A stretch of DNA of 64,000 nt from an uncultured Tateyamaria sp. (GTDB lineage: Bacteria; Pseudomonadota; Alphaproteobacteria; Rhodobacterales; Rhodobacteraceae). Under the pieces are notes generated by a model that searched no databases, was not told where the DNA came from, and saw only the letters and a program-made list of their open reading frames with translations. Position numbers and translations under genes: made by a program. Location: contig NZ_CANMBJ010000006.1 of assembly GCF_947496075.1 (NCBI RefSeq), forward strand, positions 357,001 to 421,000. Reading direction: 5' to 3'. Below are positions 17,137 through 24,447 of this stretch, piece after piece. Numbering within the stretch: the stretch's first letter is position 1; each line of letters starts with the position of its first letter.

Positions 17137-17294
17137 CGCGTTTCTCCCATACGTTGAAAGCCGCCGGAGCGGCCCGGTGTTCTGACACAAATATGTCAGG
17201 TTCTGGGCTGCGCGGCGCGTGAATAAAGCGTGAAGTCGCTTTTTCGTTTCCCAGAGTTCCGCTAGGGTTGGTGCGTGGTGCTGGGGGCATATCC

Positions 17295-18935
17295 GTGGGC
17301 AGAAAAGTGCTGGAGATCAATCTGTTCGGGCCATGCGTCGTCCGCAAAGCGGGCGCCGATGGCTATGAGATTACTGGAACCAAACACAAGGCATTGTTCG
17401 CTTTGCTTGCGACGGCCCCGTTCGGACGGCGCACGCGCAGTTTCCTGCAAGACACCCTGTGGGGTAGGTCAACCTTTGACAGCGGTCGACAGAGTTTGCG
17501 GCGCGCCGTGTCGGACATCAAATCTCATTTGGGCGAGGATTTCGACCGGTTCCTGACCACGACCCATTCGGAGCTGGCCCTGAACCTTCAGCACGTGCGC
17601 TTTCTGGGTCGACCGGGCGGCGCGACCTTTCTTGAGGGGTTGGACATTCGCGAACAAGGGTTCGAGGAGTGGCTTCATAATATCCGCCAGAACCCCAGCC
17701 AGATCTATGGCTTGTTCAGCACGTCGCATCAGCCACCGCCGCCGTCTATACTGCCAACGGTTGCCGTGGTCCCCTTTCGGCTTGTGTCTGGTGACCCCAG
17801 CCTGAATGCCATGGGCGATTTTGTGGCCGAAGAAGTCTGCCGATCGCTTTCAAAATCCAGCTTGATGTCGGTGATTTCGCATATGTCGGCGCGTCAGCTA
17901 AGCCAGCAGCAAATCGACATGCAGACAGTGCATGACACGCTTGGGGCGCATTACTGCCTGACCGGGTCACTGCGCGCCCGGGACATGCATGTGACGTTGA
18001 ATGCGGACTTCATTGACACATCAACCGGGCGCATTCTGTGGACCCGATCGTTTGGGGCGCCGGTGACAGAGTTCCTGTCGTCAGAAAGCGATGCGATTGC
18101 CGAGCTGACCACCGCCGTCGGCCGCATGATTGCGTCCGATACAGTGCGGTATGCGCGGGGTCGGCACATCGTTGATCTTGAAGATCACCGCCTGCTTTTG
18201 GCCGGCGTTGGCATGATGCACGAATTGAAGCTGGCCAATTTCGCCCGGGCACGCCAACTGATTGAAGAATCAGTGGCACGCGCGCCCTATGCCCCTGAGC
18301 CGTTGGCTTGGCTGGGCGACTGGTACATCATGTCCATCTGGAATGGGTGGAGTTCGGACCCGAAATCCGACGCGTTGCAGGCGTCCGAGCTTACCCAGCG
18401 TGCGCTGGACATTGATCCCGACAACTCGCTGTGTCTTGCCGTCGATGGTGTTGTTCATTCTGCGTTGAATAACAGTCAGGGCGTGGCTGAAAAACGGTTC
18501 GCTAAGGCGCTTGAAGTCAATCCAAATGACTCGATGTCATGGTTGTTCAGCGGTGTCATGCATGCCTTCCGGGACAGCTCTGAAACGGCCGTCGAGTATG
18601 TCGAGAAGGCGCATCGCCTGTCGCCCATAGACCCGTTGGGGTATCTTTTTCATTCTTTTGCGGCTTTTGCCCATGTATCGGCGGGTGACTATCAGCGCGC
18701 TGTCGAACTGGCAGACTTGTCGCTTGAGATGAACGCGCGCCACGTATCGACGCTGCGAACGAAGCTGTGTGCTCACCATCATTTGGGTCAGCACGAGCAG
18801 GTTATGCAGACTGGCGAACGTTTGCGCCGCCAACTTCCGTATTTTGATCTGGACGAATATCGCAGATCGCATCCGGCTGCGGGTTTTGACGTTGGCAATC
18901 GCATGGTTACGGCGCTGAAAGCGGCAGGTTTTTAG
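17295..18935 (+). CDS. Winged-helix / TolB-like / TPR regulator
   Basis: The ~546-residue protein has three parts. Residues ~1-110 resemble the OmpR/SARP-type DNA-binding domain (LEINLFGPCVVRK, KHKALFALLATAP, RQSLRRAVSDIKSHLG). Residues ~145-280 match the TolB-like/FlgO-like domain seen after such heads in adenylate-cyclase-type proteins (PTVAVVPFRLVSGDP, LGAHYCLTGSLRARDMHVTLNADFIDTSTGRILWTRSF). The remainder is TPR repeats (ALDIDPDNSLC, ALEVNPNDSMSWLFSGVM, HRLSPIDPLGYLFHS). There is no membrane segment. GTG 17295 with GGGGG seven bases upstream is chosen; GTG 17271 and TTG 17268 are alternatives. The next gene starts 39 bases later on the same strand, so it may regulate the two genes downstream or be co-expressed with them. 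Confidence 0.8.
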   Translation: MGRKVLEINLFGPCVVRKAGADGYEITGTKHKALFALLATAPFGRRTRSFLQDTLWGRSTFDSGRQSLRRAVSDIKSHLGEDFDRFLTTTHSELALNLQHVRFLGRPGGATFLEGLDIREQGFEEWLHNIRQNPSQIYGLFSTSHQPPPPSILPTVAVVPFRLVSGDPSLNAMGDFVAEEVCRSLSKSSLMSVISHMSARQLSQQQIDMQTVHDTLGAHYCLTGSLRARDMHVTLNADFIDTSTGRILWTRSFGAPVTEFLSSESDAIAELTTAVGRMIASDTVRYARGRHIVDLEDHRLLLAGVGMMHELKLANFARARQLIEESVARAPYAPEPLAWLGDWYIMSIWNGWSSDPKSDALQASELTQRALDIDPDNSLCLAVDGVVHSALNNSQGVAEKRFAKALEVNPNDSMSWLFSGVMHAFRDSSETAVEYVEKAHRLSPIDPLGYLFHSFAAFAHVSAGDYQRAVELADLSLEMNARHVSTLRTKLCAHHHLGQHEQVMQTGERLRRQLPYFDLDEYRRSHPAAGFDVGNRMVTALKAAGF

Positions 18936-18974
18936 TTTTTACAAAGTCATTTGGAACAAAAAAGGGAGAGGGAA

Positions 18975-20177
18975 ATGTCGTTATTTGGACCATTCCACGC
19001 AGGTCACGCAGGTCACGCAGGGCATGCCGGACATGCTGGTCACGCCGGTCATGCAGGGCATGCCGGGCACGCCGGACACGCGGGTCACGCAGGCCATGCT
19101 GGGCACGCAGGCCATGCTGGGCACGCGGGTCATGCGGGCCATGCCGGGCAAACAGGCGTCTATGCGGCGGGCGGGGCAGTACAAGCCAGTACCATGGCCG
19201 TTGTTCACCTTGCCGGGACTGATGATTTCCCTGTGTTTGGTGGCGGGACATTGACGCCGAACGCAACCGATCACATGGGCCGCTACGGGCAGGATGTGCG
19301 GTCGATGTTGCTGACCATGGAGTTCCTGGAAGGATTTAGATCGGTCTATACCCCAGAGCCGGATGCAGGCCGTTTGTCGTTGTCTTGGGCGGGGACAGAC
19401 TTTGCCAGTTTTGTGCCAGCCTCTGCCGAAACGTTGGCCACGCAGGTCAATCTGGTCCGCTACTATCTGGATCAGCGGGGCGACCGCGGTGCAGAGATCG
19501 TCGCCCAGACCGGTGGCGTCACCGAGTTTTTTGCGCCCATCATCGCCTTGCCAGCCGCCCGTTCGAAGCATCTGACCGAATTGCTGCAGTTCGTTCAGCA
19601 TCTGGCGGGCCTGTGTTCGATGCCGGCCAAGCATGCCCTTGCCTGCCGCCGGCCTGATGAGTTGGACAGTCGCCTGGTTCCGCTGATCCCGACACCGTCC
19701 CATGGCAGCCTGCCAAGTGGTCATGCGACCCAGGCTTCGGCCATTTCAACCGTGCTGGTGACTTTGCTCGAGGCGGCAGACCCGGGTATCAGCCATGTGG
19801 CCGAGCGCCGGGACATGATCCATGCCACAGGGCACCGTATTGCCGTGAACCGGACCGTTGCGGGTGTGCATTATCCTATCGACAGCGCCGCGGGTTTCAC
19901 GATTGGTATCAATGTTGGTCGCATCATTGCCGCTTTGGGCCAGAACGCTGACGCAGAGCTGCTGAAGTTTTCTTTTGATCCAAATGACACGGCGGCGCAG
20001 GGCGCGGATTTTATCCTGCGCGATGCGAAGGCTTTGTTCGACCCTGCGTCGACCACGCCGATTGCAGGTGTCAGCGTGGAGCGCGCGACTGTTGCGCCGC
20101 CATCGGCCGACAGCAAGTTCGCGTGGCTTTGGAGCCGCGCGCTGGACGACATCAACCACCTGCGCGCGTCGGCATGA
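18975..20177 (+). CDS. PAP2/vanadium haloperoxidase-like protein with 17 His-Ala-Gly repeats
   Basis: The 400-residue protein starts MSLFGPF and then carries 17 consecutive His-Ala-Gly triplets (bases ~18996-19148) before QTGVYAAGG. The C-terminal half has the acid-phosphatase/vanadium-haloperoxidase active-site set: Arg226 in CRRPDE, His250 in LPSGHATQAS, Arg293 and His299 in NRTVAGVHYPIDS (R-x5-H-x3-D). Characterised relatives are lipid or soluble phosphatases and haloperoxidases; which activity applies cannot be decided. There is no signal peptide or membrane helix. ATG 18975 follows GGGAGAGGGAA. The stop overlaps the start of the subtilase gene by ATGA. The histidine-rich repeat may bind metal, which is inference. 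Confidence 0.85.
   Translation: MSLFGPFHAGHAGHAGHAGHAGHAGHAGHAGHAGHAGHAGHAGHAGHAGHAGHAGHAGQTGVYAAGGAVQASTMAVVHLAGTDDFPVFGGGTLTPNATDHMGRYGQDVRSMLLTMEFLEGFRSVYTPEPDAGRLSLSWAGTDFASFVPASAETLATQVNLVRYYLDQRGDRGAEIVAQTGGVTEFFAPIIALPAARSKHLTELLQFVQHLAGLCSMPAKHALACRRPDELDSRLVPLIPTPSHGSLPSGHATQASAISTVLVTLLEAADPGISHVAERRDMIHATGHRIAVNRTVAGVHYPIDSAAGFTIGINVGRIIAALGQNADAELLKFSFDPNDTAAQGADFILRDAKALFDPASTTPIAGVSVERATVAPPSADSKFAWLWSRALDDINHLRASA
18996..19148 (+). repeat. 9-bp tandem repeat encoding (His-Ala-Gly)17
   Basis: Seventeen imperfect copies of CAYGCNGGN lie head to tail within the haloperoxidase-like gene, ending where the eighteenth unit becomes CAAACAGGC (Gln-Thr-Gly). The third codon positions vary between copies while the amino acids do not, so the peptide rather than the DNA appears to be under selection. 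Copy number is likely to vary between strains by slippage. Confidence 0.95.
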
Positions 20178-22324
20178 CCCCCGCGACAGCGCATGTGGAG
20201 TGCGCGGATGGTCCATACGAGGCATGGGTGTATGGGACGGGCAAGGGGTACAAACACCCGGGCCTGGACCGCGCATCGGATGCGCTGACGTGTGTCTTTG
20301 AAGCGTCTGAGCCGGTTGAGATGTGCGACATTCCCGGTCGTTGGAGCACGGACAAGGGCGAGGTTCTGACCCCTGTCCTGTGGACCGCACGAGGCTTCAA
20401 ATCACGCTTTGCGCCAGCCCTGTTTTTTGAAGACGACGCAGCACGCGGCGGCACTCCTGCTGGGCGCTTGCAGGGGTTCAATGCGTGTGTGGGGCAAACG
20501 GCTATTTCGACCCTCACCAGCCTGTCACCCGGACCGCGGATTGTCAGTCATGTGAACTACCCTGTGCGCGAGCAAACTGTGTTCTGCGACTGGGCGGACA
20601 GTGCTGAGCCAGACCCTGACAGTGATCCTGAAGGCATTGTTATTGTTGCGATCATCGATGACGGAATTCCGTTTGCCCATCGCAACTTCACCGATGCGGC
20701 AGGGCGGGGCACCCGCATCGATTATTGCTGGTCCCAATCTGCAACGCAGGCCGGACATCCGATGTTGTTTGGTCGGGAATATGACAAGGCGGCCATTGAT
20801 GCGCTCTATCAACAGTACGAGGGTGACGAGGGGGCGATCTATCATGCCGCAGGTCTGGCAGGCGGGGGCGACCCGAATGTCCGCAATCCGCTGGATCAGG
20901 CGTTTTCGCATGGGGCCCATGTTCTTGACAGTCTTGCGGGGCAAACACCTGGTAACGGTGAGGCCAAGCAGGACCGTGTCCATATCATAGCGGTGGACCT
21001 GCCCGCGATGGCGAGCGCGGAGACGTCGGGCTTTGGCAAGGACATGTTCGCGCTTTCGGCCATGCACTACATCTTTGATCGTGCCGAGCGTATTGCGGCG
21101 GCTTATGCAAAACCGGGCGCGCGGGTGCCGTTGATCGTGAACCTCAGCTATGGTCATTCGTCAGGTCCGCATGATGGCAACGGCGTGATCGAAGCCGCCT
21201 TTGACGAGATGATTGCCGCCCGCCGTGCGCATCACCCGACGGCTGTTGTTTTGCCATCGGGCAACATGTTCATGCAAAGCATCCATGCGGTGATGACCGA
21301 ACAACACTTTGCAGAGGCTGATGGTGCGGTGACGTTGGACTGGTTCCTGCCCCCTGATGACCGCACGTCGAGTTTTCTTGAAATCTGGTTCCCGGACGGT
21401 CTGACCCCGGATGATCTGAAGGTGGAGCTTGTGCCGCCAGCGCACGGGCTGATGGATGCGGGGCACTATGGGTTTCCCAGTGCAGATAAGGTTGCACATT
21501 CCCCAATCACCAAAGGGGATCAGCCTGTTGGGCAGCTTTCAACCCAGCAGTATCGTGATGGGCGATGGCGGCATGTGGTTGCCTTGGCGCCTACAGACGT
21601 TTTGGTGGATCAGGTGCCAGCGCCCGCGGGTCGTTGGATGGTCCGCGTGACCAAGACAATGGCGGGACCATTGCCGGGGTATACGGAAGGCCCTGACGGG
21701 CAATCCCTCGCTGGTGGGCTGCAATTCTGGATCCAGCGGGATGAAGACTTTGGCGGCGCTCGGTCTGGTGCACGTCAGAGCTATTTCATTGATCCCAAGA
21801 ACGCGCTTTATACCGACGATGGGCGACTGGCGGAAACGGACAGCCCAGGCGCGCTGGTGCGCCGGTTTGGCACTATGAGTGGCATGGCAACCGGGACGCA
21901 TGTGCTGCGTATTGGCGGATATGACGAAACCACGCTCCGCGCTGCGCGCTATAGCTGTGCGGGTTCGCTGCGATCCAAAGACGGAGATACAGTCCCTGCA
22001 GGTGCGCAGGTACAGCTTTCAGCTGCATCCGAGCGGTCGTTCACGCAGCCCGGTATCGTTGGCGCGGGGACGCGCAGCGGCACGTATATCGCGCAAAGCG
22101 GGACGTCTTCGGCGGCCCCTCAGGTTGCCCGTGCCTTGGCGGATGCCTTTCTGGACACGCCCGATGGCGAGATGAAGACGGTTGCCGACTATCTGGAGAA
22201 GCTTGATCTAAAGACCGGTACGGGTGATCCCAAAGGGCCTGATCGGCTGGGTCTGTTTGTGCTGCGCGCGCCGCATGTGTCCGGTTCTGATGATGAGCGG
22301 ATGCGGGTCGAGCGGATGGTGTAG
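20174..22324 (+). CDS. Subtilisin-like (S8) serine protease coupled to the haloperoxidase-like gene
   Basis: The 716-residue protein contains an S8 catalytic triad: Asp162 in IVAIIDDGIPFAHRNF, His246 in FSHGAHVLDSLAG and Ser645 in SGTSSAAPQVARAL. The oxyanion Asn is in VLPSGNMFM. About 400 residues separate His from Ser, longer than in minimal subtilases, implying an inserted domain. The first ~150 residues are an unrecognised N-terminal region. There is no signal peptide, so it may act in the cytosol or need another export route. ATG 20174 overlaps the upstream TGA, so the pair is translationally coupled. The biological target is unknown. Confidence 0.87.
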   Translation: MTPATAHVECADGPYEAWVYGTGKGYKHPGLDRASDALTCVFEASEPVEMCDIPGRWSTDKGEVLTPVLWTARGFKSRFAPALFFEDDAARGGTPAGRLQGFNACVGQTAISTLTSLSPGPRIVSHVNYPVREQTVFCDWADSAEPDPDSDPEGIVIVAIIDDGIPFAHRNFTDAAGRGTRIDYCWSQSATQAGHPMLFGREYDKAAIDALYQQYEGDEGAIYHAAGLAGGGDPNVRNPLDQAFSHGAHVLDSLAGQTPGNGEAKQDRVHIIAVDLPAMASAETSGFGKDMFALSAMHYIFDRAERIAAAYAKPGARVPLIVNLSYGHSSGPHDGNGVIEAAFDEMIAARRAHHPTAVVLPSGNMFMQSIHAVMTEQHFAEADGAVTLDWFLPPDDRTSSFLEIWFPDGLTPDDLKVELVPPAHGLMDAGHYGFPSADKVAHSPITKGDQPVGQLSTQQYRDGRWRHVVALAPTDVLVDQVPAPAGRWMVRVTKTMAGPLPGYTEGPDGQSLAGGLQFWIQRDEDFGGARSGARQSYFIDPKNALYTDDGRLAETDSPGALVRRFGTMSGMATGTHVLRIGGYDETTLRAARYSCAGSLRSKDGDTVPAGAQVQLSAASERSFTQPGIVGAGTRSGTYIAQSGTSSAAPQVARALADAFLDTPDGEMKTVADYLEKLDLKTGTGDPKGPDRLGLFVLRAPHVSGSDDERMRVERMV

Positions 22325-22367: not shown

Positions 22368-23066
22368 CTAGTCCTTGGCCGCGACGCAGGTGTCGAAGCC
22401 TTCGATGTCGCGGTCCTGACTGATCTTGTCCGAACAGGCCGTGACTTTTTGCACGCAGGTCACATCCAGTTTCGGGAACTGGCATGTGGTCATGGCCGCC
22501 AGGAGCGCCTGGGCAGCTGCGTCTTCCCACTCATCGCCCGCTGAGGCGCCTTCGATGGTGATGCCTATGGCTTGGGCGATGGGCGTACCGGAGGCGGCCA
22601 TGGACCATGTTGCGGCATGTTCACCGCCGTCCTTTAGCGTGAATGTTGCACTGATGCTGGGCGCTTCGATCATGTCGTGCAGCGTACCGAACGCAGGCGC
22701 TGTCCCCTCGCCATGCCAAAGCCGATTGCGCAAGGCGCGGCCCGTACTGGCCGCAAACTCGACCACGCGGCCCTGCTCCGTGCGGGCTTCGATCACCTTG
22801 GTATCGAACCCTTCGGGTGTGAGTGTCGCCACTTGCCCTTCATCGGCGATGTCACCTTTGTCGTCGGGTAGGGTGAAAAGTGCGTAAACCCGTCCGGCCG
22901 GGTTTCGATAGAGATGCAAGGTGGTGCCGTCGTCGGCGGTTGATACAGCCGCCTTGGTGTCAAACCCGTTGATTGGGTCGGTCCACGTGTCAACGAAAGT
23001 CCAGTCTGCCGCCGCAGGAGCGCCAAGCAGGCAAAGGGCGATGCAGCCAGCCTTAGCTGTCTTCAT
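22368..23066 (-). CDS. Hypothetical periplasmic protein, 232 aa
   Basis: No family recognised with confidence. A signal peptide (MKTAKAGCIALCLLGAPAAA) is followed by a mature domain beginning DWTFVDTWTDPINGF. Mature cysteines lie in TTCQFPKLDVTCVQKVTAC near the C-terminus and could form disulphides. The gene overlaps the 3' end of the MORN-repeat gene by 14 bases on the same strand, so the two secreted proteins are co-expressed. It converges with the subtilase gene across 43 bases. Confidence 0.72.
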   Translation of the reverse strand: MKTAKAGCIALCLLGAPAAADWTFVDTWTDPINGFDTKAAVSTADDGTTLHLYRNPAGRVYALFTLPDDKGDIADEGQVATLTPEGFDTKVIEARTEQGRVVEFAASTGRALRNRLWHGEGTAPAFGTLHDMIEAPSISATFTLKDGGEHAATWSMAASGTPIAQAIGITIEGASAGDEWEDAAAQALLAAMTTCQFPKLDVTCVQKVTACSDKISQDRDIEGFDTCVAAKD

Positions 23067-24447
23067 TCAGCGCACCACTTTCCCATTCACCTGTTGCCTC
23101 TTCGCCAGTGGCGTACCGCATGGTGCCCGTGCCCTGCCGCTTGCCGTTCTTGAACATCCCTTCGTACACATCGCCGCTGGCATAGGTGGCAACGCCCTGA
23201 CCGTTGATTTCGCCCTGTTGCCACGCACCCTCGTAAGTGAACCCCGAGGCCATCACAATCTTGCCCGTGCCGTGGCGCTGACCATCCTGAAACTGGCCGG
23301 TATATACAGTGCCATCAGGATACGTGGCCGTGCCTGTGCCCTGCCGCTTGCCGTCCACCCATTCGCCTTCATAGCGGTAGCCGTCGGCATAGGTCATCAC
23401 GCCGGTGCCGTGGTTGCGCGCGTTCTTGAACCCGCCTTCATACGTGATGCCATTGGCATAGGTGATCTTGCCCTGACCTTCGATCACCCCGGCAATCCAG
23501 TCCCCATCGAACACCGAGCCGTCCGTATAGCTGATCTTGCCCTCGCCCTGCGGCAGATCGTCGGCAAATTGGCCTTCGTAGACGGAGCCATCCGGATAAG
23601 TGACACGCCCTGTGCCTTCGATCTGCCCCTCGGCCCATTGGCCGATATAGGTGTAGCCGTCATTGCCGATGAATGTGCCCTGACCATGGCGGCGGTCATC
23701 GTTGAATTGACCATCGTAGACATCGCCATTGGCATAGGTCACGCGGCCCTTGCCAGCGCGTTTGCCCGACACAAGGTCCCCCTCGTACACATCGCCGTTG
23801 GGCTGGGTGAGTGTTCCGACACCGTCAATCTGCCCCTCGGCCCAAAGACCGACATATACCAGACCATCGGGCGTAGTCAGCTTGCCCTCGCCCTGGCGTT
23901 TGCCCGCTTCGATCTGGCCATCATAGACAGAGCCATCGGGGTAGGTAATCACGCCCATCCCCTGCTTGATCCCGTCGATCCAGTCGCCTTTGTATTCATA
24001 GCCGCCGGGTGATTGCATGACGCCTTTGCCGTGGTGCTTGGCGTTGCGGAAGGTGCCTTCATAGCGGACGCCGTTGGCGTAGAGGGCCACGCCGTCACCA
24101 ACAATCGCGCCGGTTTGCCATTCACCTTCATAGGTGCCGCCATCGGCAAAGGTGATCTTGCCAAACCCTTCGGGTTTGCCCTTGGCAAATGCGCCTTCAT
24201 AGACAGAGCCGTTGGGGAACCGTGCAGTGCCCTCGCCCTTGATCTCTCCGTCAATCCATTCACCGGAATACTCGTAGCCATTGGGCAGCCGGTAGGTGCC
24301 TTGACCATGCTGGAGGCCGCCGCGGAATGTGCCCTCGTACACGCCACCATCATCGTATTGCTTGGTCAGCACTGTGCCTGATTGGGCCAGCACCGCGCCG
24401 GGCAAAAGGCATAGGCAGAAGATCAGACCGCGTACGGGCGTGGACAT
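23053..24447 (-). CDS. Secreted MORN-repeat protein with about 18 repeats
   Basis: After a signal peptide (MSTPVRGLIFCLCLLPGAVLAQ) the 464-residue protein consists almost entirely of ~18 tandem 23-residue MORN motifs of the form GxxYxGxxxxGxxxGxGxxxYxx, for example GSVYEGQFADDLPQGEGKISY and GYRYEGEWVDGKRQGTGTATY. MORN arrays form elongated beta structures and are often described as lipid- or protein-binding surfaces. In bacteria the role is poorly known. It is the first gene of a pair with the overlapping hypothetical secreted protein. It is divergent from nadE across 222 bases that hold a double hairpin. Confidence 0.93.
   Translation of the reverse strand: MSTPVRGLIFCLCLLPGAVLAQSGTVLTKQYDDGGVYEGTFRGGLQHGQGTYRLPNGYEYSGEWIDGEIKGEGTARFPNGSVYEGAFAKGKPEGFGKITFADGGTYEGEWQTGAIVGDGVALYANGVRYEGTFRNAKHHGKGVMQSPGGYEYKGDWIDGIKQGMGVITYPDGSVYDGQIEAGKRQGEGKLTTPDGLVYVGLWAEGQIDGVGTLTQPNGDVYEGDLVSGKRAGKGRVTYANGDVYDGQFNDDRRHGQGTFIGNDGYTYIGQWAEGQIEGTGRVTYPDGSVYEGQFADDLPQGEGKISYTDGSVFDGDWIAGVIEGQGKITYANGITYEGGFKNARNHGTGVMTYADGYRYEGEWVDGKRQGTGTATYPDGTVYTGQFQDGQRHGTGKIVMASGFTYEGAWQQGEINGQGVATYASGDVYEGMFKNGKRQGTGTMRYATGEEATGEWESGALNEDS

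Follow-up and report, generated by a model that had tools for sequence, protein, structure and literature searches.

Among the nearest known counterparts of the proteins considered here are the clostridial Csp subtilases, which, in those parts of PMC3567191 that describe the family, have an inserted jelly roll as well as a prodomain that remains bound, with CspB held in a prodomain-blocked state, and which cut SleC at a single site with a P1 preference less specific than that of most subtilases. The class A acid phosphatases and vanadium haloperoxidases, in turn, carry the motifs K-x6-RP, PSGH and R-x5-H-x3-D on a helical core. We compared with these a locus of three genes, encoding a tetratricopeptide repeat (TPR) regulator (REG), a PAP2-fold enzyme with an N-terminal repeat tail (PAP) and an S8 protease (SUB), which lies within a 64,000-nt stretch of DNA from an uncultured Tateyamaria sp. 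(assembly GCF_947496075.1, contig NZ_CANMBJ010000006.1, positions 357,001 to 421,000; hereafter the window). All results come from sequence comparison and structure prediction, and the whole-genome searches covered Pseudomonadota, the window's phylum. The three genes recur together as a conserved module across several proteobacterial orders, and the uniformity of the copies in the PAP tail appears, judging from the sequences, to be selected at the protein level while the repeat unit itself is replaced.

In the window the three genes stand in tandem on the plus strand, REG followed by PAP and then SUB, over positions 17295-22324 (our reading of the open reading frames, ORFs), and the SUB start codon overlaps the PAP stop codon as ATGA (GCATGACC). 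This bears out the gene order and the ATGA coupling of PAP to SUB given in the original prediction, which had been made from the window sequence; its 17 uninterrupted His-Ala-Gly triplets near the PAP N-terminus proved exact (residues 8-58), and the active-site residues it named in PAP (R226, H250, R293, H299) and SUB (D162, H246, S645) are all at the positions claimed. Its statement that both enzymes lack a signal peptide agrees with our inspection, made by eye and with no predictor, in which all three N-termini were without a hydrophobic leader. The features are as follows:

17295..18935, plus strand: REG, the TPR regulator (frame open 17268-18935; 17295 is an in-frame GTG)
18975..20177, plus strand: PAP, the PAP2-fold enzyme with its N-terminal repeat tail (ATG at 18975, stop at 20177, 400 aa)
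18996..19148, plus strand: the (His-Ala-Gly)17 tail, residues 8-58 of PAP, 17 perfect copies
19629..19883, plus strand: the PAP2 active-site motifs K219-x6-R226-P, P247-S-G-H250 and R293-x5-H299-x3-D303
20174..22324, plus strand: SUB, an S8 protease fold-similar to Csp (ATG at 20174, 716 aa)
20174..20623, plus strand: SUB residues 1-150, a probable prodomain in a low-confidence part of the model
20657..22108, plus strand: the SUB catalytic set, D162 (20657-20659), H246 (20909-20911), N364 (which we take, from the S8 family, to be the oxyanion residue) and S645 (22106-22108)
21284..21943, plus strand: SUB residues about 371-590, a largely beta insertion between the oxyanion Asn and the catalytic Ser

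The PAP genes that we compared were collected by similarity to SUB or to the PAP2 core, never by the repeat. With SUB as the query, homologues were found in 23 of the 101 genomes, a count that includes the genome of the window, and in the window plus 31 further distinct loci all three genes have homologues (32/32; phmmer E ≤ 1e-4); the window's own genome holds a second module, on contig C2, with the repeat unit GSY. A scan of genome contigs with an alignment of the PAP core from which the array had been removed (a few rows keep leftover copies, but both of the scanned patterns lie inside the catalytic core) matched at least 592 stretches, at least 551 of which encode relatives. We kept the best 80 of these relatives, that is, the most similar ones, as named loci, and in all 80 a PAP with a tandem tail adjoined both SUB and REG. 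According to the titles of the records themselves, metagenome-assembled genomes (MAGs) included, these 80 comprise many Rhodobacteraceae as well as Bradyrhizobium, Microvirga, Rhizobium, Roseibium/Labrenzia, Thalassobaculum, Pelagibius, Paraburkholderia, a Burkholderiales MAG and a Chromatiales isolate. An order-level search then gave a PAP-core match (E ≤ 0.001) in 172 of 390 genomes, the weaker matches among them being probably other PAP2 proteins. Among 40 places sampled from strong to weak in that list, PAP carried a tail in 39, still at core scores near 100 bits, and REG was present in all 40; SUB was detected by profile in 35, and of the remaining five, a protein matching Pfam Peptidase_S8 adjoins PAP in L239, L240 and L243, L242 has a candidate ORF of similar appearance, and L241 has only a 31-bit SUB fragment.

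The three sets pooled gave 153 PAP ORFs, and after 11 with at least 97% core identity to a kept one were dropped, 142 in 141 loci were left. SUB stands beside PAP in 136 of these 142 and REG in 135 (>60 bits), and most of the six PAP genes below the SUB score have a weaker or more divergent S8 neighbor. In 117 of the 136 scored pairs SUB lies downstream of PAP on the same strand, with a median gap of 10 nt (longest-frame starts). These counts support the view that the genes form a unit, as had been supposed, and the check that had been proposed for refuting the prediction (the two enzymes lying mainly in separate places, or their residues varying) came out in its favor, since the enzymes occur together and keep their catalytic residues. 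An assembly artefact is ruled out by the many independent genomes and by 12 Phaeobacter plasmid records; annotated relatives on Phaeobacter plasmids are labeled winged-helix protein, PAP2 family phosphatase and S8 peptidase, and the module is present in cultured marine bacteria such as Phaeobacter gallaeciensis DSM 26640, which is not known to be pathogenic. We found no relative among viral contigs and one weak match in phage records, and against the PADLOC anti-phage profiles REG and PAP gave no match at E 1, while SUB matched only IetS (E 0.07). A phylum-level search matched 137 of 398 genomes, most of the listed matches being weak or confined to the motif region or the tail; because its query included tails, these matches served for controls alone and not for frequencies.

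A short tandem peptide is present in 141 of the 142 non-redundant PAP proteins, L241 being the exception; our script finds the tail in 140, and the second gene of L076 adds a (GS)n run that is cut by the contig edge. The period of the 140 scripted arrays is 3 in 130, 4 in six, 5 in two, 6 in one and 2 in one, and with rotations collapsed the units fall into 68 classes (for example HAG, GSY, GGV, NAY, GKE, DAR, ENW and NSS), of which 21 have no Gly. Measured by its longest exact run, an array has a median of 9.1 copies (range 3-19); the run begins no later than residue 30 in 120 of the 140, a count made on longest frames in which some starts are placed too early; the (NR)n run of L243 begins at residue 131. 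Exact tandem runs of at least 15 aa occur in 129 of 142 PAP proteins versus 1 of 1069 neighboring mechanical ORFs, which shows that the tandem tail is not due to chance, and in 0 of 130 SUB and 0 of 130 REG proteins; nor did any of these 130 SUB or 130 REG proteins contain the module's own unit twice in tandem. In the model of the window PAP the tail blocks have pLDDT values of 31-38 and are without secondary structure; the tail is probably disordered. Remote PAP2 proteins carry TGN or AGN tails or internal (NK)n runs, internal dipeptide runs of the (NK)n and (NR)n types being found in L193, L195 and L243. Among 15 weak phylum-level PAP2 matches (L189-L203), four are tailed, two have internal NK runs and nine have none; two of the tailed ones are module loci that also figure under other names, L190 as L239 and L192 as L237.

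We next compared the units with the PAP cores that carry them. A FastTree tree of 140 cores implies at least 82 unit changes (119-128 with shuffled labels) and four changes of period (10 when shuffled). The fraction of pairs with the same unit is 0.71 at 90-97% core identity (7 pairs), 0.59 at 80-90% (46 pairs), 0.61 at 70-80% (44 pairs), 0.20 at 60-70% (94 pairs), 0.07 at 50-60% (598 pairs) and at most 0.01 below 50%. Where period-3 pairs at 70% identity or above have different units, a single unit residue differs in 27 of 33, and it does so throughout the exact run; between PAPs at 84-91% core identity all copies of the run have changed in this way in SGY/SGF, GGV/GGI, SGF/SGL, GGF/GGL and SAY/SSY. 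Each of the nine two-module genomes examined has two different units. Deviating units number 39 of 1321 and are absent from 99 of the 130 period-3 arrays, in a count that sees only deviants flanked by perfect copies and so misses decayed ends; many of them are SGS-like interruptions.

At the DNA level the copies are far from uniform. Codon diversity is 0.646 inside the arrays versus 0.591 expected from the rest of the gene, a ratio of 1.09 that rules out a young DNA expansion, and among the 129 arrays with at least five copies the ratio is 0.75 or higher in 128. The window PAP begins MSLFGPF(HAG)17, an array perfect over 51 residues whose 17 copies are written with 12 distinct 9-mers, which again indicates a repeat kept as protein. 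In the GGV/GGI pair L117/L126, four-fold sites differ by 27% between the cores and by 76-78% between copies of one array. Adjacent copies differ in their codons more than shuffled ones do (0.797 vs 0.689; 96 of 110 arrays; P = 4.4e-14), and identical neighboring copies are fewer than expected (29 vs 57.5); this excess may come from selection against DNA repeats or from multi-unit block duplication. Codon-scrambled synthetic repeat genes show a similar pattern of neighbor differences. Block duplications, seen by eye in the arrays of L034 and L085, and the Phaeobacter NSF tail, which has five, six or seven units across 12 records, together show that arrays gain and lose whole units. A copy-by-copy test of array homology in close pairs, weak on short arrays, gave P < 0.05 in 2 of 16 same-unit and 0 of 18 changed-unit pairs; L114 and L120 keep their copy order (z 6.9). 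In L132 and L139, 11% of core four-fold sites differ and the array order is not significantly shared (P = 0.108), a pair in which the turnover of array DNA may be quicker than that of the core. Uniform amino acids combined with saturated synonymous differences argue for purifying selection on uniformity of the protein, with turnover of units.

Both enzymes keep their catalytic residues, whatever the unit, in the rows aligned. PAP matched PAP2 (PF01569) at E 2.2e-9, with 37.6 bits against a cut-off of 27.2 and all three catalytic motifs, and K219, R226, H250, R293, H299 and D303 are each conserved in 130/130 rows of the alignment; the 12 rows outside the PAP and SUB alignments include the most divergent ones. 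Across the same 130 rows the catalytic residues of both proteins are conserved from unit to unit, so the intact active-site sets of the original prediction extend to the homologues. The term haloperoxidase-like, which it also used, is doubtful, although such an activity is still conceivable. The best PDB matches to the fold of our PAP model (m503a458e6f15; mean pLDDT 81.7) are bacterial class A acid phosphatases (Foldseek rank 1, E 5e-6), none of the 26 PDB matches at E ≤ 0.001 is a haloperoxidase, and the first vanadium iodoperoxidase comes at rank 29 (E 2.5e-3); template modeling (TM) scores by target are 0.56-0.68 for the acid phosphatases (first 26 matches) and about 0.3 for the iodoperoxidase. 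Sequence search ranked them likewise (acid phosphatase E 1.9e-6 vs bromoperoxidase E 0.031). Unlike either group, PAP has no visible leader and has an extra N-terminal segment as well as the repeat tail.

SUB matched Peptidase_S8 (PF00082) at E 7.7e-5, with 22.6 bits against a cut-off of 21.8 and the triad and oxyanion Asn in place; D, H and N are present in 130/130 rows and S in 128/130, with two gaps. The 11 best PDB matches to its model (m1cf3b0ac9177; mean pLDDT 79.7, predicted TM score 0.88) are all CspB, CspA or CspC chains, with E values from 6.6e-23 (the first match, TM by target 0.71) to 9.5e-19, the next match being at E 6e-5, and the predicted model has the Csp fold with a beta insertion between the oxyanion Asn and the Ser. 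A CspB-like fold thus explains the long insertion that had been remarked on earlier, and the N-terminal region then described as unknown probably fits the same architecture, although it is modeled with low confidence (strands 37-44, 57-59, 62-65 and 100-107 and helix 108-116; block pLDDT 38-82). SUB shares with the clostridial proteins this position of the insertion and a complete triad, but it has 14-18% identity to them, lies beside a PAP2 gene in proteobacteria and has a prodomain that is only weakly modeled.

The upstream gene had been described as a winged-helix/TolB-like/TPR regulator, of which the C-terminal TPR part stands (TPR_14, just above its cut-off), while in the window copy the winged-helix N-terminus (Trans_reg_C, E 0.081) and the TolB/FlgO-like middle are both sub-threshold. 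Four REG relatives were tested: L033 and L064 have Trans_reg_C, and Guanylate_cyc is above the cut-off in L240 and below it in L126; the Roseibium module has a cyclase-type regulator. We then asked how the partners diverge with the unit in 184 pairs matched for PAP identity, which are not independent of one another. SUB identities in same-unit and different-unit pairs were 80.6/80.7, 63.7/68.3 and 53.7/53.0, giving no signal of covariation, as different-unit pairs were not more diverged. This argues against a protease that reads the unit, and from these sequences SUB does not seem to do so. The corresponding REG identities were 88.1/83.9, 76.9/70.1 and 73.4/59.4, an excess of 3.7 points in same-unit pairs that is spread over the protein and not confined to its TPR part; with non-independent pairs and REG adjacent in the DNA, we treat it as a hint and make no claim from it.

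Conserved protein features usually keep their sequence, whereas here the presence, period and uniformity of the tail are conserved and its sequence is replaced whole, a pattern suggesting that what is recognized is sameness and not a particular motif. The explanation that we tentatively favor, while holding it well short of probable, is that the tail is a homotypic self-association or partner-recognition tag, with SUB as a one-cut switch and REG turning the module on. REG, with its DNA-binding or cyclase front end and its TPR part, would switch on the module; the tail would act as a multivalent tag, all of whose copies have to agree and whose unit is private to each module, and would cluster or hold the PAP2 enzyme through homotypic self-association or a cognate partner; and the Csp-like SUB, with its prodomain presumably serving as a gate as in CspB, would cut the PAP2 protein or another target once, outside the repeat. 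Were the unit arbitrary, lineages and paralogues could swap it without loss, provided that all copies changed together. Several observations weigh against this proposal. Units as diverse as GKE, GGI, NSS, ENW and HAG are hard to picture in one shared mode of physical assembly, and the PAP model shows no structure in the tail. Uniformity is not absolute, as 31 of the 130 period-3 arrays have some deviation and mixed arrays exist (GGI/GGV in L116 and L123, HAG/YAG in L034, TGV/AGV in L207). The 9/9 result for paralogues is weak, given that a shared unit is in any case found in about 1% of module pairs with less than 50% core identity; prodomain gating is presumed by analogy, for a poor part of the model; and the REG excess, weak and diffuse as it is, could mean that it is the regulator that reads the tail. 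A related idea, which we regard as rather unlikely, is that the tail is an arbitrary self-matching peptide code, read by like tails or by a regulator domain, by which lineages and paralogues keep mutually exclusive addresses; if true, homogeneous tandem peptides would be the basis of a new type of recognition or assembly system in bacteria.

Other readings were weighed against the same data. The tail could be a substrate that SUB clips off or eats by tripeptide units, activating PAP2 or releasing a peptide signal; the period of 3 in 130 of 140 arrays and the position of SUB after PAP (117 of 136 pairs, median gap 10 nt) suit this, and tripeptidyl peptidase II is an S8 enzyme. We nevertheless consider it unlikely, as periods of 2, 4 and 5 occur, the divergence of SUB does not track changes of unit, and no secretion signal for a peptide is visible. 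Moreover, SUB residues S325, G327, G363 and N364, which we assume to lie near the substrate cleft, are nearly constant whatever the unit (127, 121, 130 and 130 of 130), and Csp proteases, in the relevant part of PMC3567191, cut SleC at one site. That the tail is instead a passive low-complexity spacer, a slippage product for which any small-residue unit serves with no unit-specific function, would fit the Gly content (37% of unit residues vs 7.5% in the core), the whole-unit copy number variation in Phaeobacter (NSF x5, x6, x7), the block duplications and the mixed arrays. Slippage would homogenize the DNA, however, yet codons are saturated with differences, more so between adjacent copies than between shuffled ones, with the amino acids constant, and the tail persists at core similarities of about 100 bits; this reading seems to us as improbable as the preceding one. 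Somewhat less plausible is recognition of the tail by the REG TPR domain, which would let PAP2, in its free, bound or clipped form, control the operon that encodes it. TPR superhelices do bind extended peptides, and REG is more alike in same-unit pairs at matched PAP identity, but that excess is small and diffuse, the pairs are not independent, and shared recombination between the neighboring REG and array DNA could cause it. Binding of metal or vanadate by a His-rich tail is very improbable and could at best be local to His-bearing units: the window array has 17 His, but only 6 of the 68 unit classes contain any, and close orthologues vary from 4 copies in the exact run (L035) to 17. On the 6/68 figure we reject metal binding by His as a general function, and a metal response by way of the repeat, as one form of the metal-responsive module that had been suggested, is not supported.

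The window tail can be read as (Gly-His-Ala)n and matches Pfam Collagen at E 9e-9, like collagen-like Gly-X-Y proteins, but Gly at each third position, which holds for the window copy taken by itself, does not hold across the family, and the 21 of 68 classes that lack Gly, as well as the units of 2, 4 and 5 residues, rule out a collagen-like identity for the family. Fungal NLR-type genes with near-identical WD40 or TPR repeats and amyloid signaling motifs offer an analogous case of uniform yet diversifying repeats with a recognition idea attached; they differ in that their units are either folded repeats tens of residues long or single motifs of greater length. Triceptide-type RiPP (ribosomally synthesized and post-translationally modified peptide) precursors neighbor a radical SAM maturase; a scan for the CxxxCxxC motif, made as a motif scan with no radical SAM profile search, found it in 6 of 1069 neighboring ORFs, in six loci. 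Among the open-access papers listed from PMC, a set without subscription articles or preprints, none was found to describe the module or tail, in line with the earlier statement that no described system joins the three genes, and the module is apparently both widespread and undescribed. Its 68 unit classes form a natural set for studying mutual recognition of repetitive disordered peptides, and it lets one ask how repeats whose codons have fully diversified can change in concert, and what role a Csp-like protease has in bacteria other than clostridia.

Some copies and neighbors of the module deserve mention. On a Phaeobacter inhibens M647 plasmid (L245) the annotation splits the regulator into two pieces and gives the protease as a short hypothetical protein, and this copy may be decaying; on the Parasedimentitalea marina plasmid pW43B (L256) the PAP gene, annotated as hypothetical proteins, is disrupted by a change of frame after an NSF tail. 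In the window, a 464-aa protein with many repeats, which we take to be MORN-like, is encoded 3′ of the module on the minus strand (23053-24447). In L057, L060, L061, L209, L210, L211 and L216 the module has near it members of one family of predicted proteins, about 490-710 aa long (e.g. L057:9995-11494), and the two members tested, from L057 and L216, had no Pfam or NCBIfam match at E 0.001. One ORF cluster recurs near the module in five divergent loci (L042, L063, L142, L229 and L234); the four members tested are animal-type haem peroxidases (PF03098; L042:5522-7348, L063:4687-6459, L142:9418-10974 and L234:1535-3250), and L229:1948-3579 was assigned to this group by clustering only. As neighbors, these haem peroxidases give a hint of redox chemistry.

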